Shown here piece after piece: positions 2,305 to 44,164 of a stretch of DNA of 44,482 nt. The position numbers were made by a program, and so were the translations under genes. Position 1 is the stretch's first letter; each line of letters starts with the position of its first letter. The stretch covers positions 259,360 through 303,841 of the forward strand of contig WELB01000176.1 of NCBI GenBank assembly GCA_009602725.1. Reading direction: 5' to 3'. Below the pieces are notes generated by a model. The model ran no database searches and had not been told where the DNA came from. It was given only the letters and a program-made list of their open reading frames with translations. Origin of the DNA: Spirogloea muscicola. Lineage: Eukaryota > Streptophyta > Zygnematophyceae > Spirogloeales > Spirogloeaceae.

Positions 2305-3130
2305 GCTTCCCTAGTATGTTGTCGTGATTGGTAGAGGAGAGGAGTCCTTCCTCGGCATCTCATTCTTCGGCTTTGGACACTGTCCATTCTTTTTGGGCTG
2401 GCTTTGCCAGCCCCTCTTTCTCTATGGGCGAGCCTTCTTTCTCCTCTGTATGGGCGAGCTCTTCCTTTTTTGGGCTGGTTTTTTCAGCCCCTCTCCTCAA
2501 TGGGCGAGCCCTTTCGTCAACGCTGCTGGGTCGCTTGCCCAGGTATTCCACAGCGGCTGTCTGTCTCCTTCCAAAATTTTCCTGGCTCACGCAGTGCACT
2601 TGCGGGCAGGCCACGCTATGACTTCTGCTTCTGGGTCTCGTGGGGTGCCTCTTTTCCATTGTCCATTGTTTTTTGGCTGGCTTTGCCAGCCCCTCTTCTC
2701 TATGGGCGCGCACTTTCTTCTTCTTTTCCAGCTGCGACTTGCTGCTGCTAACTCGGAGTTACTAAGCTCCCCTCCGCTGTAGTCTCTTGCATAGCTGTGT
2801 GGTTTAGGCACCTTTCGGCCCTTTGGACCTTGTCAATTCTTTCTGAGCTGGCTTTTGACAGCCCCTGCCTTGAACTGAAAGAGCTGTTGTGATTAGACGC
2901 AGGCGCGGGTGGGCGCATGGGCGTGCAAGAGGGTGAAGCTTGCGAAGCGGACTGCTTGGCAGGCTACTAAGTAGAGGTTACTATAACTTTCTGGTAGTCC
3001 TTGCTGAATTCTGTCTTTCAGCAATTTTCGGCCCCTTCGGACCTTCTCAACTCCTTTCAGGCTGGCTTTTCACAGCCTTCGCCCCCCTTCGGGCGATCCA
3101 TCCTATTCTGGCGGAGCGGTAGTCCAAAGA
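2305..3130 (+). mobile_element. Concatenated LINE 3' ends (3'UTR, hairpins and ORF stubs in series)
   Basis: After the stop at 2304 the 3'UTR runs into a hairpin at 2395-2413, a second at 2472-2490, and a decayed C-terminal stub at about 2510-2650 still readable as NAAGSLAQVF, LAHAVHLRAG and SGSRG. A third hairpin follows at 2675-2691, then a minimal stub DLLLLTRSY-stop at 2736-2765. Another 3'UTR carries hairpins near 2845-2864 and 3060-3077. Downstream of the first three hairpins lies a form of the same sequence, TATGGGCGAGC or close variants, and the next copy starts there at a different 5' truncation point. The three joined copies are therefore separate events or template switches and not a simple tandem duplication. 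No intact gene is present. Confidence 0.8.
2395..2413 (+). repeat. Perfect LINE 3'UTR hairpin, type A
   Basis: GGGCTGGC-TTT-GCCAGCCC, an exact 8-bp stem with a 3-nt loop. It follows TGTCCATTCTTTTT and precedes CTCTTTCTCTATGGGCGAGC. Identical hairpins lie at 32716-32734 (minus strand) and 43413-43431. Confidence 0.9.
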
Positions 3131-3187
3131 CTGGGGCAAAATTCACATAAAGCAAAGCCCTCGACTGAGAAGAAAGAATGCGGGTGT

Positions 3188-3660
3188 TGATTTTAAATGA
3201 GCGGCTGTGAAAGCCAAAAAAGAAGCAGCTCTTCTAAAGGGGCGGAGGGCTGTGATGATCCAGCCCACAGAGTAATTAACAAGAGCAGTAGAGAGGCTAA
3301 GGTAAGGGTGAAAGCACAGCTGAAGACAAAATGAAACCGCTCTTCCAGTAACAGGCAAAGGCTGTGAGAGGCCAGCCCATTGAAATTGAACGAAGTCCGA
3401 ATTTCGTGTATGCGAAACAAACGAAGGCCAAATGGCCAAGTACAAAGGCAAGCACATCTAAGACCTACATAACCTACAGCAGAATGACCCGAAAGGGCCG
3501 GAAGGAACAAAACTTTGAGACTTCTGTTTGTGGCATCTGCGTGAGTACTAAAGGGGGACTTCAGTATCCACGAGTGAGCACGTACAACTTTGACAAACCT
3601 GGGGAAGAAGAAGCATCTGTGCAAAATGGGGCGAGGACTGTCAAGGGCCAGCCACAAGAC
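3188..3660 (-). mobile_element. LINE 3' remnants, antisense
   Basis: Read on the minus strand, a terminal stub KLYVLTRGY-stop ends at 3561. It is followed by a 3'UTR with a block around 3409-3490 that pairs GGCCATTTGGCC with TTCGTTTG. Hairpins of the GGGCTGGC type lie near 3358-3378 and about 3188-3205, with a related one at 3631-3655. The 3409-3490 block is nearly identical to 5838-5920, so the two are copies of one 3'UTR. No coding gene is seen here. Confidence 0.7.
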
Positions 3661-4259
3661 AATGACTAGGTTTCTTAGGAGGGGCAAATGACACAAGCAG
3701 AAAGAGCTCATAGCAGCATGGCTGTGATCCACAAGCCCCATAGATGAGCGAAGGTACGCAGTGCGCACGAAATGAATGGGATGCCAAATTGAGCCAATAC
3801 ACTATTACATGGAGAACTGCCAGAAGTATTTCGATTGTGGAGCTACCCTGAGTACTGTGCCTTTGCAGGGGCAGGACGGCGGCGGCAGAAGAGGACCCCG
3901 CAGCAAGCTAGCAAGCCGCTGTCAATAGACCAATACAAGAGAAGTTCCTCCTACGGGGATACTGCTGTTGCAGTAGACACGAGGAAGCAGCCTGAGGTCA
4001 GGCAGACAGGTCCAGGAAAAGGAAGAAAGCTCCCACTTGATAAAGAGGGACCAAGGCTCTGGATTGCCCTGCCCCAGGATCAGAGGAACTCCAGGACGCA
4101 AACGTCAAGGCCTCGCCCAAGCGGACTAGATGGAGGTCGCATATCTTGTGCAGCTTCATGCGGCTGATTTGAGCCGCCATTGTCGCATGAGTAGTTGTAG
4201 ACCCAGCCGCCGGCAACAGTGGGATGCGCCGGGCCTGAGCGATGCGGGCTTGAGCTGCT
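3661..4259. other. Intergenic, no recognised gene
   Basis: A 110-codon open frame at 3835-4167 (+) is rich in Arg, Gln and Ser. It has no recognisable domain, no splice context and no repeat support. I see no other structure in this stretch. Confidence 0.4.
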
Positions 4260-4292
4260 CAAATTCCTCTGAGGAAACCTCAGAGGAATTTG
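4260..4292. repeat. Perfect 15-bp inverted repeat, 3-nt loop
   Basis: CAAATTCCTCTGAGG-AAA-CCTCAGAGGAATTTG reads as an exact stem. It resembles neither the LINE hairpin nor a transposon end found elsewhere in the window. It could be a regulatory hairpin or a chance or replication-generated palindrome; no adjacent gene assigns it a role. Confidence 0.8.
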
Positions 4293-5729
4293 TCACTTCC
4301 TGTTGCAGCCATGTTTTTGCACTGACTGAGCAGTCTCACACAATCTTAAGCAAGGGGTTGGCGTAACGTCGTTGTGCAGTGACATAGAGTCCATTCAGTT
4401 TAGTAAAGCAAGCCATTGTGAAGCAAGACACACAAACAAACAGTATGTTACCAATCAAGATTGGCCCTGGATCACAAGACATCTTCAAGAAAGTCGAGAC
4501 CAAGAACGCCCGTTGGAAGGGACTTGTGACAAGAAAGAACAGTATTGCGCCCTGAAGACGGTTCTTTGTCACAACAACAGTATCCATTGCGCGGTTTATT
4601 ATCAGTGATTATATCAATGGCAGAATACAATATGCCAACATTGACAGATTCCACTGAATGCTGCCACAACGTGCACCAATGCACCCTCACAACCATGCAC
4701 GCGGCGACCAGATTGAGCCTCAGGGCTAGAGCCTCCGGAGACAATGATTGCGAGATGCTAATTAAAGCTAAAGCACGAGCTTGTCTTGCACATGCGCCGG
4801 TCTATGTGCCGGTAAAGGATGCCTATCCAGGAGAGGCTTACTGGCATTCGATCAGCCTTGTGCCAAGAGGGCACAAGGCGGACTAAGCGCTAGAGGACTT
4901 AATCCCAAAACCTCACCGCGGTAAGACTTCGTGCCTCACTGCGATGAACTTCATGCCTCACCGCGCGAAATTCGTGCCTGACCACGGTAGGACTTCGTGG
5001 ACCGGGACGAAGACGGGCGCATGCATGAGACAAGCTCGTGCTCTTCACTGGAGTAGCATAATCCGCCAACCACTGTCTTCAAACCTCACGGTTGGACTCC
5101 GTTCACTTGGACCTCTCCTGACATTCTGAACGTGCAATACTTGAGCTGCTTTTAAAACACAGCGAAACCCTAGGCCCTCCATGCTCATACACACTCCGCA
5201 GTGGACCACTTGGCCTATAAACCTCGGCCGTTCTATCTGCCCTTTTTCTTCTTCATCTTTCCATATATCTGCTTTAGGACCTTGCACAGTTTCTCTGGCC
5301 TGGACTTCTCGCCCCTTGTTGGACTTGTACATGCCATTCCATTTGGGCTGGGCATTCACAGCCATCGCCCCCTTTGAAGCTTCTTCTCCTTGGGAGCGCG
5401 CTCAAAAAGCACTTGATCTGCGTATGCCGCTCGTTGAGCAGCGCAGGTGGTGGAATGACTCAGTCACAAAACGCTATCATGGGAGGCGAATAGTGTGCTC
5501 AGACCCGACCGGCCTTGTTATCTGGAAGTATTTGTGCTCGCAGCTATCTTGACACGACCGAGTACGAGTTTGATCAGTAGAGTACGAATACGAGTTCGAG
5601 TAAAGCCACCTCTGCACATGAGAGACCAATGAGCCAAACAACCATGTACATAGCACAACAGCCGGCAGTTGCTGCGGCTCGCAGTGTCGAGAGCTGTGTG
5701 GAAATGTAAGCGCGGCCTGATTGACTGGT
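4293..5729. other. Intergenic with degenerate repeats
   Basis: No convincing exon was found. A four-unit minisatellite lies at 4911-4999. A type-B LINE hairpin (GGGCTGGGCATTCACAGCC) lies at about 5345-5364, followed by GCCCCC and a CTTCTTCTCC tract as in other type-B copies. Confidence 0.5.
4911..4999 (+). repeat. Degenerate minisatellite, four units of 21-23 bp
   Basis: Units start at 4911, 4934, 4956 and 4977. Each begins CCTCAC or CCTGAC and ends TTCGTG or TTCATG (consensus CCTCACCGCGGTARAACTTCGTG up to indels). The units are diverged, so the array is old. No coding role is seen. Confidence 0.75.
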
Positions 5730-6260
5730 GGCTGGGAGAGGCCAGCCCAAAGGAATGGACAAGACAAGTGGAAAGGGGCAGTTGGGCAGGCATTCGCACT
5801 GCCTTGTGACACTTATTCCATTCTTGTAGGATTTTCGTGTATTTGAAACAAACGAAGGCCAAATGGCCGAGTACAAATGCAAGAACATCTAAAGACCTAC
5901 ATACTCTACAGCAGTTGACCCGCTCAGTAACCACGGTTCAAAACATAAAGGTCGGTAATCGATGCCTGAATACTAGATGTCAGATACGAAGCCCTTCTGC
6001 CACCAACTAGAGCTCGGCCAGCTTTCTGGTGCAAGGCATTAGTCTGAGCACGCTGCAAACAGGCCGTAACACGCCGTCGCAAGAAAGACAGATATGCAGC
6101 TGGCAAGCCCAACTCAGCCGGAAACACATCTGCACGACGTGTGTAGCCTAGATTGGCAATGTTTTGGAGGAGGGTGTGGAAACGAGGACCCAGACAACCA
6201 AAGACGTCGATTGCCGCTGGCAGGAGCTGATAAATTCTTGTAGGTTCCGTTCACGACCCG
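5730..6260 (-). mobile_element. Diverged LINE 3' end (C-terminal stub plus 3'UTR)
   Basis: The minus strand is open from about 6260 to a stop at 5924. It encodes AAIDVFGCLGPRF, LRRRVTACLQRAQTNALH, KAGRAL and a terminal TDLYVLNRGY. This aligns along its length with the C-terminus of the LINE ending at 2304 (LAIDVHGAFGSRW, AGRAL, LTRGY) but is strongly diverged, so it belongs to another lineage. An in-frame stop lies just upstream, so the copy is 5' truncated or decayed. Its 3'UTR carries the GGCCATTTGGCC block (5838-5900) and a hairpin at 5730-5748, both shared with other lineages in the window. Confidence 0.75.
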
Positions 6261-6299
6261 GCAGGTAACAGACAGCTCAGAATTGGGAAAGATATACAA

Positions 6300-6683
6300 A
6301 TGCCGAAAGGGCGCCTTCGCACTGGCTTCATATGTCTCGTATTTTAGGGACGTCGGTCCCAGTCAGCAATCCGAGCACGTGGGAGCCGCACGAGGGAGGG
6401 CGAGACGCCCACGTGCGCCGTCAAGCCGCCGTCAAGCTGCCGTCGGCGGGCAGGCGCGCAGACGGCGCCGCGAGGGTGAGTAGGTGGGGGGCGGCCGTCC
6501 GACGCTTTCGGTGTCGTAGCGTCGGGCGGCCTGTATAAAGCATCGGGCGCTCGCGGTCATACCACCATGTGAGCCGGGCCGCATTGTCGGCGACAGACGT
6601 CTGGGGGGCGCTACCCGTAATACCCGACGCGCGCTGCTAGCGTCGGGCGGCACTGATGGGCGGGTCACGGGGCCTCGGGCGTC
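6300..6683 (+). promoter_or_regulatory. GC-rich, promoter-like stretch with a TATA-box-like motif
   Basis: TATAAAG at 6534-6540 sits in otherwise very GC-rich DNA. The 12-mer AGCGTCGGGCGG occurs twice, just before the TATA-like motif and again near 6640. The first ATG downstream is followed directly by a stop. If this is a promoter it may drive a long 5' leader of the LRR gene that starts at 7745, or a non-coding RNA. The assignment rests on base composition and motif only. Confidence 0.3.
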
Positions 6684-6929
6684 GGCGAGAGAGAGAGGGA
6701 GAGGGTGAGAGGGGGGGAGAGAGGGGGCGAGAGAGTGGAGAGAGTGAGAAAGAGGGAGGGAGGGAGGGAGGGAGATAGAGAAAGAGTGAGAAGAGAGAGG
6801 GGGAAAGAGTGAGAGAAGAGAGAGAGAGAGAGGGAGGGGAAGAGAGAGAGAGAGTGTGAGGGGGAGGGAGGGAGGGAGAGAGGGGGAGAGGGAGAGAGGG
6901 TGAGAGGGAGAGGGGGAAGAGGGGGAGAA
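6684..6929 (+). repeat. Polypurine tract, (GA)n/(GGGA)n microsatellite
   Basis: About 246 bp of nearly uninterrupted purines on the plus strand, with only scattered T and C. It mixes GAGAGA, GGGAGGGAGGGA and GGGGAGAG blocks. Apparent minus-strand frames rich in Ser, Leu and Pro are translations of the repeat. Mirror-symmetric purine runs of this length can form triplex DNA in principle. Confidence 0.9.
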
Positions 6930-7744
6930 CCCCCCCCACATCCAGACGGATGAAACTTGAAGGCTAAACCACGAGTGAGTGGAAGGAAGTGGGTCTTGCA
7001 GCCCCGCGGGCCGAGGAGGGACGAGCGGAAGGAGACGGGAAGGCGCCCCCCAAACCCCCCCAACCAGCACAGGCTGAGCCGATCGGCAGCCCCAGCAAAG
7101 CCCTCGCCAGCCCAGCAGCAAAGCAATGCCGAGCTAGGGCCTCCCTCCTTCATCCTCCGTCCTCTCGATCAGCCTGCCGCCGTCGGACGAGCCTGCTGCT
7201 TCACAACGCAGCTGGAGGAGGCTCCTCCTCTGTCCGCCGCCGCCTGCGTCCAAGCTTGCCGAGAGGACCACCCGCGCTGGCACCAGCCGAGGTCAGCTCC
7301 CAATGTCGAACTCCAGGAGCCGCGGCCGACGTTGTGGTCTGCCCAGTCGAGTTGCCAATGCCGCTTGTGCCGTTTGCTAGCACTGCGTGCTGGAAGCGAC
7401 CCACATGCAAGCATCAGACACATTTGTGGTACCAGTCATCCCTGCCTACGCCATTCGCACAGCATCAGTGAGATGGTAGAGGCAGCGGGCGTTAATGTTG
7501 CCTAAGTACTCCAGAGGCAGGTCCACAGTCTGACCGAGCAAGTCATGGAGGAGCAGCTGAGGTCCAAACATGCGCCTTGGTCTGCCGCTTCTGGCGACAC
7601 TACTGTCCTGTTACTTGCACTGGCAATGTAGCATTTACATGAGCGTCCAAGCTCTACGGTGCAGCAGAGGTCGCACACGACTCATTGCCACCTTCATATT
7701 AAACCTGGGGCTTGCATCCGTACAGGTGGAGCAGGAAGCCTGCC
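6930..7744 (+). other. Probable 5' leader or intergenic region of the LRR-GPI gene
   Basis: GC-rich near 6950-7300 and mixed after that. A 182-codon open frame at 6957-7505 is rich in Pro, Arg, Ser and Ala, matches no family I know and overlaps other open frames of similar quality. I treat it as non-coding. A 5'UTR exon cannot be ruled out. Confidence 0.35.
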
Positions 7745-11747: not shown

Positions 11748-13741
11748 AGGGCACCCTGCAGCTGTGCAGTGGTGCAACAGCGGCTTAACTCTTAGCATTA
11801 TAGTTGATTTCCTATGGTAATTGTTGCAGATATTGTTGACACCTCTTAGGATTTGATACTTGTGATTCTGCAGAACAGTGTGCGCAACAGTCAGGTCTAT
11901 AATTCAGTCATCGTAGTTGCGTTTCCATGTCGAGCTGCCACCGAAAACACTTTATTGGCTCGACTCTCAGATGCAACCTAGCATGTGAATGCTTCCACTA
12001 CTTGCAGTGCTTGCAACTGAGCCTGGTGCAGCCGCTCTTTGAGCTTGCCAACCAGCAACTCATCTCCGCACGCTTGACATGGCCCTGTACTACGCTTTCT
12101 TCCTGCTGCCCTTACTGGCTGCTTATTTTCTCCAGCCTGTGTATGAAACACCGCAGTCTCTCTCCAGTTGTTGGCCGCACAACTGCCAGTGTGGCCTCTA
12201 TGAGCAGGACCGCTGGCGGGCCTTCTGCCTGCCCAGTGTGCAGCTGTCTCCAGCAGCCAGCCGGCCGCTACCAAGCATTGGTGTCACGGGCTTAGCTACT
12301 TGCAACCAGGAAGGGCCAGGTATTTAGGGCTCGGCTGCGCTCCTGAGCACCACGTCCTCTTCTTCAAGCAGCATCAGTAGGGCTGAGCATGAACACTTAG
12401 TCCTGACGCAAGTATATCACGATGTTCAGGAAGAGTAGATCTACAAGGACTGTGTGCAGTACTCAACCCTGTGCACCACAAAACCATGGCGACGCTGGTG
12501 TAGCCCTCCAGCAAACGAGGCTCCGGGCTGTTGACCTGTCTCCGAGGCAGTGGCCCTCTTGTACACGTGGCCCTTTCAAGTACCAGCTGCATGATTGCTC
12601 TGTGCAGCTTCAGGAGGCTATATGGACGTACATGCCTCATTGCTAACTGCTGCCGGTGTGGCCTTCCTATGCTAGCTGTGTGGCAATGCTAACGTCCTCG
12701 AAGAGGCAAAGTGGTCCTGCAGCAACCTCCTCATCCTCTAGACTTATCTGAAGAAACAGTGTTGTATCCCATCTAGCAAGTAAGACCAGCTAGACCAGCT
12801 AGACCACCTACTCTGACTAGAACTCCTCAGGCCGCCAAATGTCACCACATAAAAGTGAACACCATGGCTCAGCAAGTCGCATGTCACAATAGTATGCATC
12901 CTTGAGCGCCAGCCACGGCTTGCTTTTGAATCCAGTGGAGATGATGTAGAGCTTCGGTAGGCATGACCCTTGTGAAGACGACCCAACCTAAGTTTGCAAG
13001 TTTGATTTTTCTCTTGCATAACAAGCCATTCCTCCTTTGACCGCATAGCATACTGCAGTTGGTGAAATGTACGTGCTGCCGGCCCAACATGGATGCGCTT
13101 GTCGGCGGCCAGACGCTCGCCTAGGCATCGTCATGCGTCAGTCTCAGAGAGAAGTGGCACTCCCAATGAGGGCAAGGGCTGCGAAAAGCCAGCCCAAAAA
13201 GATTGACAAAGGTTTGGAGGGGCCTACAAGCGAACAGTCTCTAGTGTTGAGCACATCAAGGAAGTCTCCTATACAATAGAATCAGGAGAAGAGTTGGCTC
13301 GTAACGAAAGCAGACAATGCCACAGCGGCCAAGCACAGAAGCGACAGCCCCACCTGCACCACTAGCAGCAGAAGAGACTGCGAGCTCCTGCACCGGATGG
13401 GCAAATGTCGGTGAGTGGCCAGCCGGAGGAGCAGGAGAATTGACGTCCATTTGAAACGAACAAACGAAGGAGAAGAAGTGGCACTCCCAATGGAGAGGAA
13501 CTGCGCGTGTATTCAGAGATGGCGCCCTGTCTGCCTAGCCTTTGGCTCCGTCATGAAGACCTGTATGCATCTGGCTGGCATTTCACAGCCGATTCTTTAA
13601 TACCAGCATTCAACTTTCTCACGGGCTGGCTTCTCACTTTGGGAGAGCCACTTACCTCACAGCCATTGCCTTGGATTGTTGGGTAAAGCTGCTCCGCAGT
13701 AGAAGCTTCGTCTCCCCGACGCTGGCCTCGTCGCGACCGCC
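11748..13741. other. Intergenic region between the LRR-GPI and aldo-keto reductase genes
   Basis: No gene recognised. It probably includes the 3'UTR of the upstream gene. Contents seen: three near-identical 9-bp units (AGACCAGCT) at 12783-12809, an antisense LINE-type hairpin at about 13177-13195, and plus-strand hairpin halves at 13573-13590 and 13624-13635. Open frames at 11927-12295 and in 12744-13046 have no domain features. Confidence 0.5.
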
Positions 13742-13891
13742 GTGGCGTGGCCACCATCGCGCCGACGGCGGCAGCGCCGCGACGGCGGCGACAACAGGCG
13801 TGGCCCTCGACGTCAAGCTGGAGAAGCTGAAGCCCTGAAGCCTGAAGCCCCCACCCGCGGCGTGCCGGGCGCCATTGCCGCGGCAGCGGCG

Positions 13892-19182: not shown

Positions 19183-23339
<4,157 letters not shown>

Positions 23340-25310: not shown

Positions 25311-25474
25311 AGGACCGAAGTCTGCAAGGAAGTAGGGGTGATTGCCTAGAGGGGCTCAGCTTGGCGGGCATGCTCCTTTTACTTTTATTGTGCTCCAACT
25401 ATTTCTTGATATCATTCATTGCCTCGCCGGTGACTGGTTTAGTTGGATGTCATGATAGTGTATCAAAATTGAGC

Positions 25475-31310: not shown

Positions 31311-32385
31311 TGCCTATGTGTGGAAATTTCAAGGTGTCAGCAATTCAAGGCACTGCAACATCAAAACAGCATCAGTTGCATCAGTTGCTGATGCAGGCGA
31401 CCCAATGACACATTTCATAGTGTTGCAGAGACTATGGACCACTCTCTAGCTCCCTTCCAGCCAATACAAGAAGCATGTGCCCGAATAAAGGTGCAATTTA
31501 TCGACTCCCTTCTTACATTTGCAAGACCTGAACCCTCCCTGTATCTGTTACTGACATTTGCAGTATACTCCATAGCGGTAGCAACCACTCTCTAGATCAC
31601 AGGCAGCAAAATGATTACTAATCAGATTACAAATGCAAAAAGGCATGTCAAGGCATATGTGCACAAATATGTGCATAGCAAGCGCTAGTAGCAGCAGCAG
31701 ATCGGGGAAAGCTTGCTGACTTCATGACGACTCAGACCAGCGAAAACCAGCCATCAGTTCATTGCTCTGCAACTATGAAATTACGATCATCTGTGATGCC
31801 TCTTGAAGACGATCAAGTTCGACAGCCTCTTCCCTCTGTAGCTTACGGTCTGTGCGAAGTGGTACAAGATCATGGAAGACAGGAAGCAGCAAAGCGGCAC
31901 AGTGTGGCATAGGGAGCAATGTCAATGTAAAAGAACGAAGAATCAAGGCCTTCGCTGACACGAGCTGCGCTGAGCCAACACAGGAAGAGCGCATACAGAA
32001 GTGGCTGGGGCTGAGGCTAAGTTCTTGCCGCTTGCTAACTACATACCTGACCAACAAGTCAGCACGTCTGCTTTGTAGGGAGAATGACGAGCTCCACGGG
32101 AATAAGCAATCACTGTGTCGAGGAGAGAGGCCACCTCGGCCGATTGTTTCGGAGAGGCTAACCAAGGCCGCAGCGGCCGACAGCAGAGGAGAACATCGGC
32201 CCTGATGAGACTTGCAGCATGTCGCCTGCCCGTCTCCTTCGTGGCACAAGGCTGCCGGCAGCACCCTGCGCGACCAGTGCCGCCGTCGCGGCGCCTTGAC
32301 CGAGCTGCCGTTGCCGCCGTGCCCGGGAGGACTGGCGGGCCAAGGGGAGCTGCGGGTGCTCGCCGCCGTCGTTGTACCGCTCACT
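31311..32385. other. Upstream region of kinase copy A, inside the left arm
   Basis: This is the divergent promoter side. It matches 34845-35968 in inverted orientation. Between 31800 and 32300 both arms keep open frames on both strands: plus-strand GTRSWKTGSSKAA and LTNKSARLLC, minus-strand MPHCAALLLPVFHDLVPLRTD. None matches a family I know. They could be a 5' exon, part of an older element, or chance in GC-rich DNA. Confidence 0.4.
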
Positions 32386-32715
32386 GCTCCTCTGGAAGAA
32401 AGAATGTGCTCGCCCATAGAGAGAAGGCGCGCGGGGCGCATGAAATGAAAGGGAGGCCAATTCAAGCCAGTACAGTGTTCAGGGGAAGGCTACTGCAGAC
32501 TAAACAAGGCTATATATACCTAAAGTAAGGTGCCTAAGGTGACATCAATACCCACGGGTGAGCACAAACAAATCTGACAAGCTAACTTGGGCAGCTGGAG
32601 CGCCGCCACAAAGAGAGAGAGTGGCTGGCAGAGCCAGCCCAAAAGTATGGACAAGATCCCAAGCCAAAGAAAGAGGAGCCGAAAAAAGAAGAAAGGGCTC
32701 GCCCATAGAGAAGAG

Positions 32716-32734
32716 GGGCTGGCAAAGCCAGCCC
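32716..32734 (-). repeat. Perfect LINE 3'UTR hairpin, type A
   Basis: Reads GGGCTGGCTTTGCCAGCCC on the minus strand, identical to 2395-2413. It is followed on that strand by CTCTTCTCTATGGGCGAGC. Confidence 0.9.
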
Positions 32735-34369
32735 AAAAAGAATGGACAATGTCCAAAGCCAAAGAAAGAGTTGCCAAAGAAGGACTACTCTACCAAACAC
32801 AACATCACACTAAAGAAGCTCAATACCCACGAGTGAGCAACAGCAGGTCAGAATAGCTCGATGCGGGGAAGGAGGCCCTCCGCCGAGACCCGGAGGCGGC
32901 GGCCAGAGCGCGTCCTGCACTACAGGAAGAAAGGGCTCGCCCATTGAGGAGAGGGGCTGGACAAGCCAGCCCGAAAAAGAATGAACAAAGTACGAGTAGG
33001 GGGCCAGGGGAAGGGGAAGGAAGAAGGCTCGCCCATGGAGAAAGAGGGGCTGGCAAGGAGCCAGAGGAAGCGCTAAGAAAACAAAGCACACAAAGAAAGA
33101 AAGCAGCTGCAAATCACTCAGTAACCCCTGCTAAGCAGCCGCAAATCAGAGAGGCTAGGGTCCTGAAAGTGGGTCCCCTGGCCAGGCAAGAGCCCGGCCG
33201 GCACAAAGGTGCAGCGCACGGGCCATCGACCGCTGCAGCGGAACGGCCAGGGGAAGCGCTAAGGAAAGCAAGCACAAAACGAAGCATAGCTGCTACGAAT
33301 CACTCAGTAACCCCTGCTGAGCAGCCGCAGATCAGAGATGCTAGGCGCCTGGAAGGGGGTCCCCTGGCCAAAACGCTATCTCAGAACTGGGTTAGGACGA
33401 ACCACTCAATAACTACGAGTGAGGAGCAGCAAATCCGAAAGGCTAGCTGCTGGACACAATCCCCCTGACGAAAGCCAGAGGCTGCAGCGAGAGCACGGCC
33501 AGCCTGCAGGTGCAAGGCGTGGGCATGGCCTGCTGAAGGGAAATAGTCAAGCGCATGCGGTAGACCTGGGCCACGAGCCAGCGGCGTTGAAGTCAGCCTG
33601 CTCACCTCGCCTGCAGGACACAGCGTGCCGAAAGGCCAGCCCTCTCTCTCTCGCGCTAGTTGAGGCACTGTGTGCGTCAGCGCTTTTGTGGCCTTTTCGA
33701 ACTTTCTTCACTCTAGTATCTGGGCTGGCCACTCACAGCCAGGGCCCTCTATTGGAAGAGTCTTTCTCTCTTTGGAGAGGAGACTCTTCTGCGAGTCCTT
33801 CTTTCTTTGTACATGATTGCTCTGACCTGCGGCTACTCACTAGGTGGTAATGAGCACCCAGTGACCACTTGAGTCGCTGTGCACTCAAACGCCTTCTGGC
33901 CCCTTCAAACTCTGTACATTTTTCTGGGCGGGTCAACCACAGCCATTGCCCTGGAGGAGAGTTTCTTCTTTGGGAGCGCTGTTGTTCGTTTGTTGCTGGC
34001 CCCCTTTCTCTATGGGCGCGCACTTTCTTTGTGGGCTGGCTTTTCCCAGCCAAGGACAGCTGGAGGAAAATTGGAAGGTGCATACGAAACACCTGCCATG
34101 TGAGCCTGCGGCATTGAAGTCAGCTCGCCGTGCGGCCGGCTGTGAGAGAAAGACGCTTCCAGGAGAGGGCGGTGGCTGTGAGAGGCCATCCAAAGAGATG
34201 AACTGGAAGGCGCTTCCTGAGAAGTGGCACTACTAAAGAAAGAGCTCGCCCATTGAGGATAGGGGCTGGAACAGCCAGCCCAAAAAAGAATGGACAAAGT
34301 ACGAGAAGGGAGCCAGGGGAAGCGCTAAGAAAAACAAGCACGAGAAGAAACAAAGCAACTACGAATGAC

Positions 34370-34640
34370 TCAGTAATTCCTGCTGAACAGCCGCAGATCA
34401 GAGATGCTAGGGTCCTGGAAGTGGGTCCCCTGGACAGAGCCAGAGGCAGCAGCTAGGGCTCTTCCGGCACGAAGGTGCAGCGCACGGGCCATGGACCTCT
34501 GCAGCGAGACGGCCAAGCGCATGCGATACACTTGCGCCAGCGACCCGGCTGCAGGAAAGTCTACCGGTTCACCATGGAAGCGACGGGCGATTGCGTGGCG
34601 GGCGAGCTGGTTAAAGGCCAAATGGCCTCCCGGCAAAGGG
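34370..34640 (-). mobile_element. LINE C-terminal ORF stub, young subfamily
   Basis: Encodes NQLARHAIARRFHGEPVDF, AAGSLAQVYRMRLAVSLQRS, LHLRAGRALAAAS and SDLRLFSRNY-stop. It is almost identical to the stub at 18282-18581 on the other strand but starts at a different truncation point. The terminal RGY has become RNY. Confidence 0.8.
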
Positions 34641-34845
34641 CCGAGGGCTGTGAAAACCAGCCCTAAGAGCGCTGGAGAGAAAGTCAGAGAAAGTCATGCT
34701 CTCAAAATCGGATCCACTCCCAAAAAGAAGAACAGCTCTTCCAGTTTACGGCAATGGCTGTTAAAGCCAGCCCAAAGCAATGTACAAAGGAGGCGGAAGA
34801 TGGGACAAGGTCCGAAGGAGCCTAGGAAATGTAGAGAAGTGGCCG

Positions 34846-35968
34846 GCACAACGACGGCCACGAGCACCCGCAGCTCCCCTGGCCCGCGAGTCCTTCCGTG
34901 GCACGGCGGCAGCGGCAGCGCGGTCAAGTGCCGCGGCGGAAGAGGCCGCGGAGGTGGAGGCTCCTGCATTGCTCGCACAGCCGTGCTGCCGGCAGCCTTG
35001 TGCTACAGAGAAGACGGGCAGGCGACATGCTGCAAGTCTCATCGGGGCTGATGTTCTCCTCTGCTGTCGGCCACTGCGGCCTTGGTTAGCCTCTCTGAAA
35101 CAGTCGGCCGGGGTGGCCTCTCTCCTCGACACAGTGGTTACTTATACCCGTGTATGGAGCTCGTGACTCTCCGTGCAAAGCAGACCTGCTGACTTGTTGG
35201 TCAGGTAGGTCATCAGCACGCGGCGATATCTGAGCCTCAGCCCCAGCCCACTCCTGTATGCGCTCTCTGTGCGTTGGCTTAGCCCAGCTCGTGTCATTGG
35301 AGGCCTTGATCTTCGACGTTCGTCTACATTGACATTGCTCCCTATGCCACACCGTGCCGCTTTGCTGCTTCCTGTCTTCCATGATCTTGTACCTCTTCGC
35401 ACAGACTGTAAGCTACAGAGTCAACATGCTGTTGAGCTTGATCAATATCAAGAGGCATCACCGAATGGTCGTTAAAGTCATAATTGCAGCGTGATATTTT
35501 GATGGCTGGCTTTCACTGGACAGAGTCGTCATGAAGTCCAGAAAGCTTTTCCCGATCAGCTGCTGCTACTAGAACATACGATGCTAAGTTAACAATTTGT
35601 GCACAGCTATTGAATTGCCTATTCTCGATGCTTATCTGATAAGTGATCGTTTTGCTGCCTGTGATCTAGAGAGTGGTTACCACTATTGAGTACACTGCAA
35701 GTGTGAGTAACAGATACAGGGAGGATTCAGGTCTTGCGAATGTGAGAAGGGAGTCGTGAAAGGCTGAATCTTCTCACAGTGATGGCTCATGTATACGGGC
35801 ACGTGCTTCTTGCATTGGCTGAAAGGTAGCTGGACAGTTGTCCATAGACCTTGCAACAATATGAGATGTGTTATTGGATTGCCTGCATCAGCAGCTGATG
35901 ATACTGATGCTGTGTTGATGTTGCAGTGCCTTGTATTGCTGACACCTTGCAATTTCCACACATAGGCA
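34846..35968. other. Upstream region of kinase copy B, inside the right arm
   Basis: Counterpart of 31311-32385. A minus-strand frame starting at 35402 begins GTRSWKTGSSKAARCGIGSN, nearly as in the other arm. The plus strand reads MPHRAALLLPVFHDLVPLRTD. No domain recognised. The promoter and 5'UTR of copy B should lie here. Confidence 0.4.
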
Positions 35969-38900
35969 ATGGCACACGCACTTTTAAAGGCATTGCTCCT
36001 GGCAGGCACTCTGTGGGTCTCTGATGGACTACTACTGGCTGCTGATCGTACTGCCACTCACCCTACATCACAATCTTCACCGTTGTGCCTCAATGTCTCT
36101 TCATTTTGGAATCCTCATATTGTGGGCCCATCCTTAGGCCAAAGCTTGGCCTAAGGATTAGGCCAAAGCTTGGCCTACTTTAGCCTTGTCGCTGTCTGGA
36201 GTTACATTGTGAATATTGCAAGTGCTGGCCTGCTCGCAGTTGCTGTTCTTCTGGAGCTCCGAAGGCACATTGTTAAGGATCCCAGTGGTTACCTACGTGG
36301 CTGGAATGGCATAACAGACCCCTGCATTGATTCTTGGAAGGGCGTGACATGTTGCATCGAGCAAGATTCCACATGTGACAGCTGGCGAGGTCAAGCAGGC
36401 GGTCGCCTTCGGGTTGAGGCCTTGTGAGCCTCCCCTCCCCTACGTGTAAATGACTTGAGTCACAAAGTTCCGTCTATTGTTGAGGAGGGTGACCTCTTGC
36501 GCCATCGCTTGCCAGTCCTCTGGAATGTGGCTATTAAGACTTGGCAGATTTCCTGCCTCTCCAGGTACCTAGGAAGCCAATATCGAGCACTTGATCTGAA
36601 ATTGGAGGGAACGCTTCCTCGCAATCTGGATAGATTGGAGTGGCTTTCAGTTCTGTAAGATATCTCGATCACTTGCGCATTTGGCTCTTGCAGCTTATGA
36701 CCGAATGAAGGAAGGCAATGCTGCATCCAGCATCATATGCAACTTTCGTCCCCCCATGCCATGTCTCAGCCATGCCTGCCATAGGATATGCAGTGAAGAA
36801 TTACTGAGAACTTTCTTGAACTATGACCTGTTGGAAATTGTCAACTGCAGAGATGTTAGCAACAACCGACTGACCGGACCACTGCCCTTGTTACCAGTCC
36901 CTCGGAAAGGTTTGGACCAGTACATGTAAGGCTTCCTGCTGAATAGTTCCCCCCTTGTTGAAATCATGTGGTGCCCTTGATGTTGGGCGGAGTAGTAACA
37001 TATGAACAGTGTAGTATAACTGCACTCATATTCCATGGTGGATGCTGAAGACGAAGAAAAGACTGAAACTGCTAGTATGCCTTATTGTCCACCTTATTGT
37101 CCACAATATATTATCAGATACTTGAATATGAATCAGTTTACTGGGTCCATTCCTGATCAGCTGCGGGATGGGCTGCAACTTCTGTGAGTTGACTGACAGT
37201 ATAATTAGCTCATCCCTCGTACTTCGTCATAGCAAGCAGGCTCAATCGCAATTGAATTGTGCTTTTGTGACCTACAATGTATTTAGGATGCAACACAAGT
37301 GGCTCTATTTGTAACCTCGCTCAGCGAATTGTGCAAGCATACACTTATATCGTTCATGCTACTTGCAGAGATTGTTCATCCAATAACTTGGATGGGCTGC
37401 TTCCAGCAGGGCTCTTCGTGCAATCTCTTAGTGTCCTGTAAGCACAGGAATAGTTGCAATGTCATCTCTGCTTACAAAGACGAAAGAGGAAATACAAATT
37501 ATCGCAGTTTTGTGCCAATTTGAATGAACGTCTCTCAATGCTACTGTGGAGGTGTGTCACAAACATTTGAGTATGTTGCTGCAGCAACGTCTCTTTCAAC
37601 CTCTTTGGAGGACCACTGCCATCCTTCAAATTGCTCAAAACCATGGGCATTCTGTAAGATAGACCATTGCGCCTATCATCCTGGTATTGGTTGAGAGTAC
37701 AGACCATTGCATGAACGAAGCAGTCACAAAGGCAAGAGGGCTACCTGTATGATATAGTGAGACTCTACTGGTGGTCTTGCCCATGTGTCTAATCAGATGT
37801 CATTTTGACTTGGAAGCTGGATGATGGCCTAGTATCATGTTTGTTGTGATTAGTGGTATTTGCCTGGGGCCCTTAAATTCTGCTGAAAGAAGGAATAGTG
37901 ATTTGTGTCATAACGACGCGCTGGCTACATTTGTTCAGTATGAGAGGAGCTTGTAGCAAGTAAGTGCGTGAGGACGATCTGAACTGTGTGCTTGCAGCGA
38001 CCTTTCTCATAATGTGCTGGTAGGAACATTTCCTGGGGACTTGTCTGGTGAGGTCTTGACCGCCATGTAAGTCTTGCTACCTTTGCTGGTAGCGTAGGAA
38101 TATTTGTGTTGTGATAAGCTGGAACACTTGGACACAAGGAATTGTCAGGGGCGTTGTTCTGCACACAATCTCACACTTGGCTTGACTGTCTGTTCGTGCT
38201 TGAGACAATGCTACCGCACTTTGGTTTGTTCATAGAATTGTAGCAGAGTCAACAGTATGGGTAGCAAGCTATGCTATGTGAAGCAAAGCAGAGCATGCAT
38301 TTTGTTAGTTGTTTGATTGTTTTTGTGCTGTCGCTTTCATGAGCTGCATGTCAAGTAAAAAGTGCCATGCCTTTGCAGAAATGTAAGCAATAACCTCTTG
38401 GAAGGAGGCTTTCCAGATTCACTAGTTGGGCTCCCAAACTTATTATCTATGTAAGCCCTGCTACTCCTTACTGTGAAGAGCTACAGATGCATATACGTAT
38501 ATCTGCTTCTTGCTGTAAGAAGTCAGTGTTTCTCACGTCTCGTTCTAAGAAGGTGCAGAAAGAGTGCTCAGTGTCGTCCTCTGTGGGTTGTCTAGTGACC
38601 TACATGCCAACAATTTCTCTGGCGAAATTCCGAGCAATGTATTTGAATTAGTCAGAGAAATACAATATCCCTTATATCTGTGAGATTCATCTGCACTCTT
38701 ACCAGCTCCTTGAATGTTAACTGCACATTCCAAGTGGTTTGATGTGAAGGTTGTGATAGCAGCAAACTCCTTTGTATAATTCCCTGGTTGACGTGCCTGC
38801 TATCAGCTACATAGAAGAATATGTCATAACATGGTGCATGTTTTCTTGTATCACTATGAGGGCAATCTACATCAGAAGTATTGCACACAATACTTTCACT

Positions 38901-41862
38901 GGAAATATACCAGCACAAATTGTCCAGGATTTATGTATCAATGCTGCTAGCGAAAGTCAGCTTGACATTAAAGCGGCCATGTTTCCAACTTTGTAAGACA
39001 TGCCTTTTGACATCTGATGCAAAAGCTTTGTCATGTATCTAACCTTGTGTACCATATTGCTCTGCTTCAAGCCTCTAGGCAAGCTGCAAAGGAAGAAGCA
39101 GAAGCAGAGGCTCATCAGCTTTGTGTGAAGTGCTGGAAGTGCAGTTGCTTGCAGTACTAGGATCCTGAGAATACTAGCACTGCTACACTGGAGAATGCTT
39201 GGTCCTTGTAGCAGGTAGTAGGACACACAACTGATGGATTCGTGTGTTCATGCAGGGACATGTATGCGAACAATCTCACAGGACCCATACCTTCTTGCAG
39301 CAGCAAGCGTGTGAAGATATAGTAAGGAGAGCTACTCCTACCCTGGTGCTACATCATCAGACATTGATGATATAGCTGCTCAAGAGGAACTTGTCTTGCT
39401 TTCTTGTGAAGTCCGTCTCGGACTTGAATGTGCACATTGTCTGTCAAGCACGGGGCTGCTCACCCTCTCCTTTGTCTACTGTGTCAGTCTAACCTTCTCA
39501 GATTGCTTGGAAGCTTCTATGTGTAAGGGCCAATCTGGTCAACCAACATGCGGGATGCTGTGATATGGTTTAGACAGTACTATGTAGACACAAGCCTATC
39601 AACATTGGCTCCCTGTATTATCGAAGTGACAAAGAACTGCCAAAATATCTCTTGTTTTGCAGCTATGGTCAGAATAAAGCTCTCTGCGGTGCTGATGGTT
39701 TACCTCCTTGTCCACCACCAAATGCAACTCATACTAGTAGTCCAACTAGGAGAAGCCCACCAGTACAGTCATTGAGATCTCCTCCGCATGCTCCTGCTAC
39801 TTCACCAATCACTATGCAACATGGTACAGTGGGTGAAGCTGCTCCATTATCAGCTCTGGCTATTGCAGCTATAATCATCAGCACAATTATTGTCATTTTG
39901 GTACCTGCTGGCATTCTGCTCAAGATTAGAGCTCGGAGGCGGAGGCAAGAGCAAGAGCCCATTGATCAACATCTTGGTCAAGGTGAAAGAGGGCCACGCG
40001 ACCACTTGGGCTAAGTATAGGTTAAGGATGCAAAGCACTCAAGATCAGAGCTTGCAAAAGGCCCTGTTGGAGATCTTTGACTCAGTGACGTTCTTATTTA
40101 GTCTTGTCCTTTCTCAGATTATTGTGGATAATCAATGAGTGTCTCACATTTGGATCGTGTCTTGCTCGGAGTGGTTATAACTTTCACTGACAAGCAATTA
40201 GGCAACTGCTTTGAGGACAGCATAGCAGACATCTAATTCTTCTGTTTCTGGATGCCAGGACTACCCCTTGTACAGCAAGATGGTCAGATGCCTTATGAAG
40301 CTCTGCAAAGAGCAACCAACAACTTTGCTATAGATAGAAAGATTGGGAGAGGTGGCTTTGGCGATGTGTACCTCGGAGTTCTCGCAAATGGCGACCAGGT
40401 CGCTGTGAAGGTCTTGCACCCGATGGAAGATCATGCACAGGCACATGTATCATTTGAGGCAGAGGTGGCCATTGTCAGCCAAATAAATCACCGCAATCTC
40501 GTCAAGATCGTGGGTCACTGTGCCTTCGCTCGTCAGCGATTACTTGTATATGAATTCAAGGAGCAGGGCAGCTTGCTCGACCGATTGCAGGGTTGGTCAA
40601 ATCGAACCCTGTAGCTAACGATTTCCGTACTGCAGCAAGCTTGTTTTGGTAAAGAGCTGCTCCCTTTGAGCCTCCATTCTGAAGCTTAGACTTCAAGACA
40701 TTCATCCAACCCTAGGTATCATTGCTGCCTGACTGGTGTTCATAATGTTCAGGGAGTGCGCCTCACCTCACCTGGCAAGTACGGGTCAGGATAGCCCAAG
40801 GAGCCGCAAAGGGACTCATATATCCTCAGATTGAGCAATGCCTATCTCTTGGCAATGTGCTACTTGCAAGGAGGACATTATCAGATACGTAGATGAGCAT
40901 GGACTTACTTTGTCGAGGCATCTTGAAGAGCAGTCGTCATTCATGATTTATGCAGTTCACGGCTCATAACACGATGGGCCAAGCAATTGCTCTTTGCACT
41001 CCCTTGACAGGAAGTCCTGCACGTACTTGCATGAAGGTTGTTCGCCCCGTATAATACATCGTGACATAAAACCGGCCAATATCCTTTTGAATGCAAAATT
41101 TGAACCAGCAATTGCTGACTTCGGCCTTGCAAAGCTGGTGCCAGAAGATGTGATCAACATCTCAACAAAGGTGTGCATCTTTGCCTTGCCTAGCTTTCTA
41201 ATGAGCTTGATGTGATGTTGGTTTCATGAGATTTTTTCCATTGTCAGGGAATGCTTTGCTCAGTGTGCTCACAGGAGAAGTACATTGTTGCAGATGTTTG
41301 GTACACCTGGCTACATTGCGCCAGAGGTAGAATCCGGCAAAGTGGGAGACCAAGTAGACGTTTGGAGTTTTGGAGTTGTCCTCTTGGAGCTCGTCTGTGG
41401 CCTTCGGTCTGCTGGTCACCAAGGATTACTAAAGCAGGTGTGCTTACTCTTGACCAAGCTGGCTTCCACGCTAGGTCTGTCTGACAAAGTCCATTAAGCC
41501 CGTTACTGGTGACAAGGGTTTGAAAATGTGTAGCTCACAGTATGCTGATGTTCTGCTTCATTCTCTCAGCTTCATTCTCTCATTTCGGCATGTCAATGAT
41601 GCACGCGTTGCAGGTCAGAGAAGCGTTGGCAAGCAACGAGGTGGAGAACGTGTTGGATCGGAGGATCAGGAGCACGGTAAATATTGCAGAAGCAAGATCC
41701 TTCCTCCTTGTGGGACTACTGTGTTTGGCAGATAATCCTGACTTTAGGCCAACCATGCGTGCAGTGGTTCAACACCTTTCTGGCATATATCCTTCTCCCA
41801 TTCTTGAGGATGTCCTGCAGACTAGCACTTCCATTTCTGGCCTAGAATCTTCTTCCTCATAG
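35969..41862 (+). CDS. LRR receptor-like serine/threonine kinase, copy B (RLK/Pelle family)
   Basis: Exons: 35969-36047, 36240-36423, 36565-36654, 36851-36925, 37118-37183, 37369-37437, 37585-37653, 37998-38066, 38379-38450, 38596-38679, 38876-38992, 39256-39321, 39663-39982, 40259-40591, a short exon from 40753, about 41011-41170, 41294-41437 and 41614-41862; about 780 aa. A signal peptide ([16 protein letters not shown]) leads to an LRR cap ([16 protein letters not shown]), ten one-LRR exons with phase-2 borders, a Pro/Ser/Thr-rich stalk, a TM helix (about 410-432) and a kinase: [30 protein letters not shown] (RD type), [28 protein letters not shown]. Such receptors sense extracellular ligands and phosphorylate cytoplasmic targets. 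The short exon holds the W-x5[10 protein letters not shown] helix, but its 3' border and the junction to YLHEGCSPR are unresolved. Copy B looks intact otherwise. Confidence 0.85.
36132..36177 (+). repeat. 24-bp tandem duplication forming a palindrome in intron 1 of copy B
   Basis: TTAGGCCAAAGCTTGGCCTA occurs at 36134-36153 and 36158-36177. The first unit sits in a perfect 11-bp inverted repeat, CCTTAGGCCAA-AGC-TTGGCCTAAGG (36132-36156). Copy A has a single, slightly different unit at 31127-31146. Confidence 0.8.
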
Positions 41863-42075
41863 ACATCAATATATGTGATACTCAATTATGACGATCGACT
41901 GAAGCAGTTACCCCGAGGCAATGGATGATCAAGAAATAACTGGAGCACGGTAAACACTAGAAGCATAAGGAGCAATGCCCGCCAAGCTGAGCCCCGACAG
42001 ACAAACCACCCTTCTCTTTGAGGACTTCGGTCCTGGTCATTGGATTGGGGGTGACATGTCTTTAGTAGCTCTAGG

Positions 42076-43323
42076 TCGTGCAATATCCTATCGGTGGCTT
42101 ATGTTTGTCAAGGATGGTGAGGCGGTGGCACACGTGGACACATGAGGTGGACTCACTTTAGTCTGGTACTCTCAAGGAGACGAATCTTGCTTAATCGCCG
42201 CCTCGGATACCGCGTTGTCCACCAGCACGTCTGCAAGGGCGCTACAGCTGGGTGCTGTCCAGCATAGCAAACAGGAGCAAACGCTATGGAGTGCGTTGAG
42301 AGTCTGGTACGAAAAGGACTCGCATTGTCACGTTCGGACCTAAACAGGCAGGTTAGAGCCGAATGTGTCCTTATTGGATTGAGTGCTTGGGAGTTTAGGG
42401 ACAACCACCCGCCACGAGGAAGCACTCCGGCACAGCGGAAGACTTGCCCTGTGGTGATGCCGCTAAACAGCGGCTCCACCCACGGGCACACGCTGTAGCC
42501 TTACCTCCCGCAGGACGCCGCCAAGGTCTCCACAGCAGAGCCGGCAACGAGCCGAGCGGGGCAGCGGTCTACAGCAGCAGGCAGCCGCAAGGCTGCGCCT
42601 CTCCGAGCTTCACTGAGTCCCCAGCCCCCAAGGTCGGGTCTCTCTCGGCTCGTGCAATAGTCAGTGCTTCTCCGTGCCACCCCCCCTCAAGGGTGTATGG
42701 GGGTCGCCCCAAGGCTCGCCCACGAGGAGCGTGCCTGACGAGGGAATCATGAGCTGTCTCCAGCAAGCGCCATGGCGCCGAGCATGGCCGCGGCGGGCAT
42801 GGCGCCGAGCATGGCCGCGGGCGGCCATGCCGCCGGGGCGTCCGGGCCCACGCATGTCGCCGAGCATGTCTGGGCCGAGCATGACGGGAGCATGCGAGGC
42901 CACCCGGACGAACCTGGACGGAACGACAACGGCACGAGTGCCAGGGCGGTGCGTGCCGTCCGGCACAAACGGCCAAATGAACACCAGGTAAGCGTTAACA
43001 ACACTATTAGGCGCTCACAGACCTGGGAACGTTATACGCATACACGGTACCTCCACCTCAGCTCCGGTCAGGAGTTTAGATGCGCACCTGCCCCCGAGCC
43101 GCGATCTGGCATCGGCGCGCAACCCTGTCCTGCCACCCGAATCGCTCAAAGAGGAGCCCTAAAGCCCGCTTCGATGGGTGTGATCCACCTTGACGAGTGT
43201 TGGCGGGTACTGGCCAGGCTAGCAGCGGGTAAAGATAGGTAGTGGTGGAAGTGACTGTCCCAGGCTTTACTGGCCGTGGGACCAGGGGTGCCAAATGGAC
43301 AAAATCGCTTCCGTTTTGGGTAC
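42076..43323. other. Outer flank of the right arm, no confident gene
   Basis: GC-rich from about 42480 to 43000, with overlapping open frames on several strands. The most gene-like is 42674-42991 (+), Ala/Pro/Met-rich with PSM repeats and a possible donor CAG|GTAAGC after 42988. It reads through a tandem repeat and has no known domain. I cannot support a product. Confidence 0.35.
42772..42825 (+). repeat. Two-unit 27-bp tandem repeat
   Basis: ATGGCGCCGAGCATGGCCGC starts both 42772-42798 and 42799-42825. Degenerate CCGAGCATG units continue to about 42890. Confidence 0.8.
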
Positions 43324-43460
43324 TGAGCTTCCTTCTGCATCGTCTCGTGTCTAGTTGTGTAGTTTTTCTTTTCGGCTCCTTCTTTGGCTTTTTGATATTG
43401 TCCATTCTTTTTGGGCTGGCTTTGCCAGCCCCTCTTCTCTATGGGCGAGCAATTTTCTAA
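43318..43460 (+). mobile_element. LINE 3' end remnant (GY-stop, 3'UTR, hairpin)
   Basis: GGGTACTGAGCTTCC at 43318-43332 corresponds to the GY-stop and first 3'UTR bases of the LINE ending at 2304. A 3'UTR with TTGTCCATTCTTTTT follows, then the perfect hairpin 43413-43431 and CTATGGGCGAGC. Confidence 0.8.
43413..43431 (+). repeat. Perfect LINE 3'UTR hairpin, type A
   Basis: GGGCTGGCTTTGCCAGCCC, identical to 2395-2413. The flanking CTCTTCTCTATGGGCGAGC also matches the 32716 copy. Confidence 0.9.
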
Positions 43461-44164
43461 AATGGCCTGCCCCCCGTCGATGTGACTAATTGCCTGACCA
43501 AGCATAAGGGTTGGGAGGGCCGAGGCCCAGCAGTCTTCTCGGCCCAGTTCTTACCTTGCCAGAACTGCCCCACAGCTACCGCCGCCGCCTCTTTGTCATC
43601 GGGCGTCTTTGCTGCATTCGTGACACGCCAAGAAGGCGTGGGCTCATAGGAAGGGCAGCCGCGCAGCTAGAGAGCCTTTAACCCGTGAAGCTCGGCATCC
43701 GGTTGCGTGAGACCGGCTCACACTTGATAAGCCACGAAGATAGTGGCACCTTGTGTTTCTTTTGCTTCAGCAATCACCATGTACGGCAATCCTTTCCTTC
43801 TGGACTGCGGTCCTAAGCATGTGACGTGTCTCCCAACCCCTTTGACTAGAGAGTCAACAAACATCCTGCACACTTTGCTCCATGTCACCTGTTCCTACTT
43901 CTAATGATTATTGCTGCGCTATTTCATTTTGATTTGTTGCTTCTGCCCGCCACGTAAGCCCTGACACGTCCCTCTTTGGTCTCAACCTGACCTGTCGACG
44001 TAGTAAGGCAATCGACACTTTGTGACACGGCAGGAGTGCCTCCTGAACCCCCTACAGCCGAACCCAACAAGGAAGAACAGAGCTTCCAAATTATTTGGTG
44101 GCTGTGAGAGGCCAGCCCAAATGAATGAGCAAGGACAACTCACGTCTAATTGTATAGGTACATT
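43461..44164. other. Intergenic, possible minus-strand exon near 43550-43640
   Basis: On the minus strand, about 43640-43555, an open stretch encodes TPDDKEAAAVAVGQFWQ followed by a possible donor GTAAGAAC. It is short, has no recognised domain and lacks a partner exon. An antisense LINE-type hairpin (GGCTGTGAGAGGCCAGCCC) sits at about 44100-44118. Confidence 0.25.

Follow-up and report, generated by a model that had tools for sequence, protein, structure and literature searches.

The window analysed here, that is, the whole stretch of 44,482 nucleotides (nt) from contig WELB01000176.1 of Spirogloea muscicola, holds a single body of a long interspersed element (LINE) together with a family of short hairpins that mark LINE 3' ends. 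The LINE body (1-2304) is frame-shifted, and its 3' untranslated region (UTR) finishes with a hairpin of this family at 2395.

Hairpins and LINE 3' ends in the window

A first-pass annotation, made from the letters of the sequence, had described the hairpins as abundant, and the counts bear this out. The motif GGGCTGGC occurs 26 times in the window when both strands are read (a perfect hairpin scores twice), against a mean of 3.21 and a maximum of 8 in 100 dinucleotide shuffles. Moreover, a covariance model of the terminal ~70 nt (R1), built from 48 sequences, 17 of them copies from the window, found 30 sites at E ≤ 0.1 and 26 at E ≤ 0.001. Searching the window for GGCTG...CAGCC stems revealed what recurs on the sense strand, namely a pyrimidine-rich tract such as TTGTCCATTCTTTT on the 5' side of the hairpin and a conserved block on its 3' side. 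The three type A hairpins originally cited, at 2395, 32716 and 43413, are all present, the flank at 2395 with three mismatches and the element at 32716 on the minus strand, and the type A flank with up to three mismatches occurs at 11 window sites where 0.02 would be expected. Type B could be kept as described at 18181 and 33722 and required amendment elsewhere: the hairpin at 17703 has GACAGCC, site 5345 carries GGGCTGGGC, 34755 is a minus-strand copy, and the type itself subdivides into B1 (CCCAGCCACCAGTCAATCTGGCCGCGC), B2 (CACAGCCCTTGCCCCCATTGGGAG) and older mixed copies (old). The features of the window are as follows, with R1 scores in bits, open reading frames as ORFs and reverse transcriptase as RT.

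1-2304, plus: frame-shifted and 5'-truncated LINE body that includes the RT and the C-terminal region (ORFs 449-1735 and 1147-2304; tblastn 93-99% in pieces against the uninterrupted L045 ORF)
2305-2444, plus: 3' UTR of the 1-2304 LINE with type A 3' end (hairpin 2395-2413; R1 match 2375-2444, 73.2 bits)
2451-2520, plus: type A 3' end (57.8 bits)
2654-2722, plus: type A 3' end (74.7 bits)
2825-2895, plus: degenerate 3' end (46.2 bits)
3039-3109, plus: type B (B2-like) 3' end (44.4 bits)
3217-3287, minus: type B (B2-like) 3' end (55.9 bits)
3328-3398, minus: type B 3' end, old (44.0 bits)
3605-3673, minus: degenerate 3' end (30.3 bits)
5326-5391, plus: type B 3' end, old, site 5345 (38.0 bits)
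5699-5767, minus: type B1 3' end, form as in LINE copies L035-L044 (60.4 bits)
5927-6214, minus: diverged fragment of LINE C-terminal coding sequence, on the strand of the B1 end and 160 nt ahead of it (37% identity by tblastn, E 5e-4)
13146-13214, minus: type B2 3' end, form as in B2 LINE ends (68.5 bits)
17176-17245, minus: type B 3' end, old (30.6 bits)
17689-17753, plus: type B 3' end, old, site 17703 (25.1 bits)
18159-18232, plus: type B 3' end, old, site 18181 (38.8 bits)
18270-18578, plus: LINE C-terminal coding fragment (tblastn E 2e-18)
18637-18706, plus: type A 3' end of fragment 18270-18578 (70.7 bits)
32592-32659, minus: type A 3' end (50.1 bits)
32686-32754, minus: type A 3' end, site 32716 (87.1 bits), with a LINE coding match of 21 amino acids (aa) upstream at 32823-32885 (tblastn E 0.008)
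32924-32993, minus: type A 3' end (77.1 bits)
33699-33772, plus: type B 3' end, old, site 33722 (49.0 bits)
33907-33973, plus: degenerate 3' end (25.5 bits)
33977-34032, plus: degenerate type A-like 3' end (27.0 bits)
34142-34210, minus: degenerate 3' end (29.5 bits)
34233-34302, minus: type A 3' end (82.4 bits), with a LINE coding fragment upstream at 34373-34615 (tblastn E 6e-9)
34724-34792, minus: type B 3' end, old, site 34755 (55.0 bits)
43393-43461, plus: type A 3' end, site 43413, query of the short-copy search (78.6 bits)
44069-44137, minus: type B 3' end, old (60.0 bits)

Using tblastn with three query proteins, LINE coding sequence was detected within 160 nt upstream and on the same strand of five of the 26 ends (2375, 5699, 18637, 32686 and 34233), the match upstream of 32686 being weak (E 0.008).

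Position of the hairpin in LINE copies and in short copies

The relationship between hairpin and LINE was assessed in copies chosen by their protein and without regard to the hairpin. A search of the host genome with the C-terminal 285 aa of the LINE returned at least 141 matches (136 of 20,733 candidates scored), from which 40 places were fetched across subfamilies (68-97% aa identity) that, together with the window copy, make up 41 LINE copies. A regular expression (regex) recognized the hairpin in 37 of them, and an R1 end was in place, at the end of the 3' UTR, in 39 (15 of these own ends are among the 48 rows of R1), the two exceptions being a copy interrupted by another one (L014) and a chimeric copy with a 26-bit match (L033). 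When copy 3' ends were mapped relative to the hairpin, as the first-pass annotation had proposed, sibling homology ceased 42-48 nt past the start of GGCTGG in 30 of the 37 measured copies, for type A and B1 alike. The other seven stop at 27 (L008), 37 (L031), 40.5 (L039), 48.5 (L018), 50 (L028), 56 (L020) and 61.5 nt (L017), and two copies (L038 and L042) meet masked bases just past their end.

The CACAGCC-type ends turned out to be the LINE 3' ends of another subfamily, apparently of the same LINE. For B2, a C-terminal peptide of 43 aa yielded at least 150 matches (150 of 12,138 candidates scored), and 20 copies were fetched. The regex found the hairpin in place in 14, with the boundary 44-51 nt on in 13 of these, the remaining one (L118) breaking off 20 nt past the hairpin start. 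In two more (L103 and L109), which carry stem substitutions, the end was recovered by R1, giving 16 of 20 in place; the other four copies are either interrupted (L102, L105 and L110) or truncated (L114). Copy L099, which is partly masked, has beside B2-linked sequence a peptide that by eye looks similar to the C-terminal part of the window LINE. Instead of poly(A), the sampled copies carry terminal CTTCTT-like or (TTC)n tails, and, as judged by eye, the type of loop and flank tracks the protein subfamily. The number of TTC units past the B2 end varies among copies L100-L118, as slippage at the onset of reverse transcription would produce. Altogether, in the sampled A, B1 and B2 subfamilies the spacing between the hairpin and the 3' end of the LINE copy is nearly constant, and the original proposal that these hairpins mark LINE 3' ends holds.

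A second set was defined with a 71-nt type A query, and 40 short copies from among its matches were aligned on the hairpin. Of these, 35 were used, and the five omitted, whose stem substitutions hid them from the regex, show the same ending by eye. Column identity is at least 0.89 from the hairpin start to position +38, except at +18, and falls to 0.29-0.46 from +46 on; since the query stops at +42 and can force conservation only up to there, the later drop was not created by the selection. Among 559 pairs, the 3' limit of the shared segment has a median of 43 nt (interquartile range, IQR, 42-47), whereas the 5' extension has an IQR of 35-100 nt, and, taking for every copy its longest match to another one, the reach on the 5' side lies between 35 and 712 nt. 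The sampled short copies thus have a common 3' end and differing lengths of upstream sequence, which in several of them run into LINE 3' UTR and coding sequence. A fixed 3' end with a ragged 5' end is the signature of reverse transcription that starts from a fixed RNA 3' end and stops early, and 3' ends alone are common because of this 5' truncation, in agreement with the initial suggestion that 3' ends multiply by themselves. The first-pass annotation had counted hairpins with no LINE sequence nearby as a sign against its view; such hairpins are literally frequent in the window, where only five ends have coding sequence upstream, but the sampled short copies share the LINE 3' end.

The alignment behind R1 (A1) consists of 48 rows picked by hand from 99 regex candidates, and the regex presumes most of the stem, a preselection that carries over into A1 itself, the core-pair counts, R1, the outer-helix test and the sense/antisense count over 157 ends described below. 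Conservation is therefore argued from copies chosen by protein. In the 55 pairs formed by 11 representatives, chosen by hand and every one with a hairpin, the terminal ~70 nt are 74% identical, the 18-nt hairpin 82% and the last 31 codons 74%, whereas the rest of the 3' UTR of the same pairs is 52% identical versus 48% when shuffled. The identity of the terminal block exceeded that of the rest of the 3' UTR in 54 of the 55 pairs, which supports a terminal block under constraint.

Insertion sites were looked at in eight interrupted or odd copies, three of which are clean insertions into a sibling 3' UTR with a known empty site. The overlaps at these insertions are of ~8 nt (L110), 5-6 nt (L105) and 1-4 nt (L102), and L014 has a deficit of 16-17 nt relative to distant siblings. 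Two of the clean insertions, L110 and L105, are separate events that hit almost the same spot of the B2 LINE 3' UTR (TTTGTAG or CTGTAG before CTGC), with the two inserts facing opposite ways, a near-coincidence that may hint at some target preference. The 3' flanks of the 35 short copies share nothing beyond the pyrimidine-rich tail, and those of ORF-linked copies differ by eye; unlike R2, there is no shared target in the sample, flanks having been compared among copies and not with the 28S gene itself. LINE subfamilies coexist and insert into one another, and the 3' ends cluster: in 12 segments of 8 kb each, placed at round coordinates (96 kb in total), R1 recovers 20 ends at E ≤ 0.001, which fall in five of the segments, 17 of them in two.

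The densest cluster of LINE 3' ends in the window lies between two copies of a protein kinase gene. This inverted pair (25476-32264 and 34983-41861) was considered as a pair of LINEs and rejected: two of the four left-arm ORFs tested are protein kinase and the other two had no Pfam match, so the pair is a duplicated gene pair, arranged head to head and 83-93% identical in the pieces listed. A different repeat with the palindrome GGCCAAATGGCC occurs at 3399-3461 and 5830-5892 (90% identical), the latter with a 400-nt relative in copy L002 (88%), and a long purine-rich tract with imperfect repeats extends over 6683-6937. As for the host, an exon of a light-harvesting complex (LHC) protein scored best against one multi-domain LHCI chain (9vfj, 417 bits over two stretches) and second best against the LHCII chains 8htu and 7xqp, these structures coming from Euglena and moss, a result consistent with an alga that has a green-type plastid.

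A candidate recognition tag and its alternatives

The LINE protein was read from copies with an uninterrupted single frame, two of 1,406 and 1,521 aa, stop to stop, and a third of 1,130 aa. Cys/His finger-like motifs are visible by eye at the N terminus, Pfam placed RVT_1 in all three ORFs scanned and reported no apurinic endonuclease-like (APE) domain in them, and a C-terminal region of ~306 aa follows. LINEs of the L2 clade carry an APE-type endonuclease. With a profile running from the RT to the C terminus, two R2 proteins were the only matches in the PDB below E 0.001. A structural model of the C-terminal region, weak in itself, ranked R2 entries first to fifth in Foldseek (E 0.018-0.054, none below 0.001) and first to seventh in VIA-align (Z 6.3-7.7, values under 8 not being decisive), with nucleases and spliceosome entries among the mixed matches ranked after them. 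No single one of these results settles the matter. Since the RT sequence and the C-terminal fold both point to R2, we call the LINE R2-like, an assignment of moderate confidence, as is the placement outside the L2 clade; the element probably encodes a restriction-like endonuclease (RLE).

On these grounds, the hairpin is, in our opinion, quite probably the core of a ~70-nt 3'-terminal recognition tag common to the subfamilies of this R2-like LINE, with the recognition by the LINE protein being inferred. The protein would bind the tag through the conserved stem and a loop and flank specific to each subfamily, and the RNA 3' end would then be set in the RT active site ~42-48 nt past the hairpin start. 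Reverse transcription would begin at this tag-placed end on nicked DNA (target-primed reverse transcription) and, by often stopping early, could leave many short 3' ends, sometimes nested.

Several results weigh against this interpretation. Covariation of the stem, claimed in the first-pass annotation and set there beforehand as a refuting test, did not appear: compensatory double changes were found at none of the five core pairs in the 48 sequences preselected for the stem, a test with little power, given core pairs that are almost invariant and rows chosen for their stem. When six ends were folded and compared with shuffles, type A reached a z of -3.9, B2 one of -1.2, and B1 and old type B stayed around 0; as only type A clearly beats its shuffles, what is conserved may be the sequence no less than the structure. 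In the count of core-stem changes over 157 ends given below, 22 cells are mismatched, 14 of them because the same stems are read one base out of register, and the ratio of sense to antisense includes shared ancestry. Target duplications were not in excess in the 35 short copies (3 of 35 versus 4.8% of controls). On the protein side, the full ORF found nothing at E ≤ 0.1 in the PDB with phmmer, the profile of the C-terminal region alone retrieved no R2 by sequence, and the C-terminal model used for the structural rankings is of low confidence (predicted local distance difference test, pLDDT, of 53).

In that count, single core-stem changes that leave a G-U pair do so for the sense RNA alone in 20 cells and for the antisense alone in 5, or ~13:4 once shared ancestry is collapsed by eye, a modest hint that RNA pairing matters. 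When 144 type A stems were counted more loosely, wobbles numbered 32 (sense-only) and 7 (antisense-only) and mismatches 156. Almost all of these mismatches affect pair one or the two innermost pairs out of eight, and those pairs are not conserved outside type A. An outer helix formed by TTGTCCAT with ATGGGCGA is predicted in the folded type A end, for instance at 32691-32754 (minus strand). As a general feature it was rejected, with cognate flanks at -8.2 and swapped flanks at -8.4 kcal/mol in 117 representatives. Where type A has this helix, CAAT/ATTG can be seen by eye in B2; it might be a compensatory pair, for which the general flank test gave no support.

The recognition tag has to be compared with three other explanations. 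It is unlikely, though the best placed of the three, that the 3' block is a signal for host machinery that forms the transcript end, a stem-loop that may be like the one ending histone mRNAs, while the LINE protein would read something else such as the CTTCTTC tail. The absence of poly(A), the CTTCTT-like or (TTC)n tails and a hairpin nearly fixed before the end would all suit such a signal; however, each protein subfamily has its own loop and downstream block, a diversity that one host factor would not favour, and the extra TTC units at some ends fit slippage of the RT. Both roles are not mutually exclusive. There is little to recommend the idea that the tags are alike only through recent divergence of the subfamilies or exchange of 3' ends by recombination, with no selection involved: it draws on subfamilies that live side by side and invade each other and on at least one chimeric end (L033), but the neighbouring 3' UTR is nearly random in the same representatives in which the tag is as conserved as coding sequence, and loop and flank follow the protein subfamily by eye. 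Finally, separate short elements independent of the LINE, either short interspersed elements (SINEs) or palindromes like miniature inverted-repeat transposable elements (MITEs), merely acquired by LINEs, would explain the 21 of 26 window copies with no detectable LINE coding sequence just upstream, and are most improbable given that 5' extents vary and in several copies reach LINE 3' UTR and coding sequence, that 39 of 41 and 16 of 20 LINE copies selected by protein have the tag where it belongs, and that the palindrome is internal rather than terminal.

Going beyond the recognition tag itself, it is conceivable, although we would rather bet against it, that the compact tag with its near-invariant GGCTG/CAGCC stem serves as a common currency across R2-like subfamilies, whose C-terminal proteins go down to 68-70% identity among the matches listed. 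The proteins would then cross-recognize each other's ends, the short copies would form a shared pool for mobilization, and site specificity would have been lost.

Comparison with known systems

The literature was searched by words, the sequence not being searchable there, and among the titles and abstract openings listed none describes this tag. The principle is known from other elements and the family looks like a new and abundant example of it, the evidence for novelty from the literature being weak. For annotation, a frequent short repeat of this genome finds its explanation as LINE tails and not as independent hairpin elements. Moreover, R2-type proteins are under development for writing DNA into genomes, an application reliant on a short 3' RNA tag and on the choice of site; an abundant and apparently non-site-specific relative with variants of a ~70-nt tag would help to separate tag recognition from target choice.

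The parallel with L2/UnaL2 elements that was drawn originally stands for the mechanism, which fits, and fails for the protein, which looks R2-like. In the L2-clade elements UnaL2, ZfL2-1 and ZfL2-2, a 3' stem-loop is read by their own protein, and the authors propose for the zebrafish elements that one part of it recognizes stems in a general way and another recognizes the loop specifically (PMC4176376). As in these stringent-type LINEs, the element described here has a conserved 3' stem-loop near the ends of its copies, and a stem nearly invariant, a loop and flank specific to the subfamily and a nearly fixed distance to the end would fit such a scheme of general stem and specific loop; in contrast to them, it looks R2-like at its C terminus.

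In a lineage of monocot L1 elements, the last ~45 nt are conserved whereas the rest diverges, and a hairpin with CGAG in its 3' flank is shared with SINEs (PMC3747384). In type A, too, GGGCGAGC follows the hairpin, which may be a coincidence; unlike here, where none were found, compensatory stem changes are reported for those elements (PMC3747384), which belong to the L1 clade. The RandI/Dualen LINEs of Chlamydomonas share their 3' ends with the short SINEX elements, mostly with repeats other than poly(A), but the 3' repeats of RandI are (ATT)n or (CTATTT)n (PMC3747384), and Dualen encodes both types of endonuclease (PMC4640811), whereas Pfam reported no APE domain in the three ORFs scanned here. 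The HERO clade, placed by RT trees, comprises RLE LINEs many of which have no target specificity (PMC4640811).

The element also resembles R2 (R2Bm and R2Tg) in a single long ORF, N-terminal Cys/His finger-like motifs seen by eye, the RT and a C-terminal region whose low-confidence model has its best structural matches in R2. The R2Bm protein binds a ~40-nt core of its own 3' UTR, and in vitro a 43-nt tag is enough for it to be fully active (PMC10499050). Insertion of R2 takes place at a single 28S site, whereas the sampled copies of the LINE described here have no common 3' flank beyond a pyrimidine-rich tail, and its candidate tag is a simple hairpin with conserved flanks.

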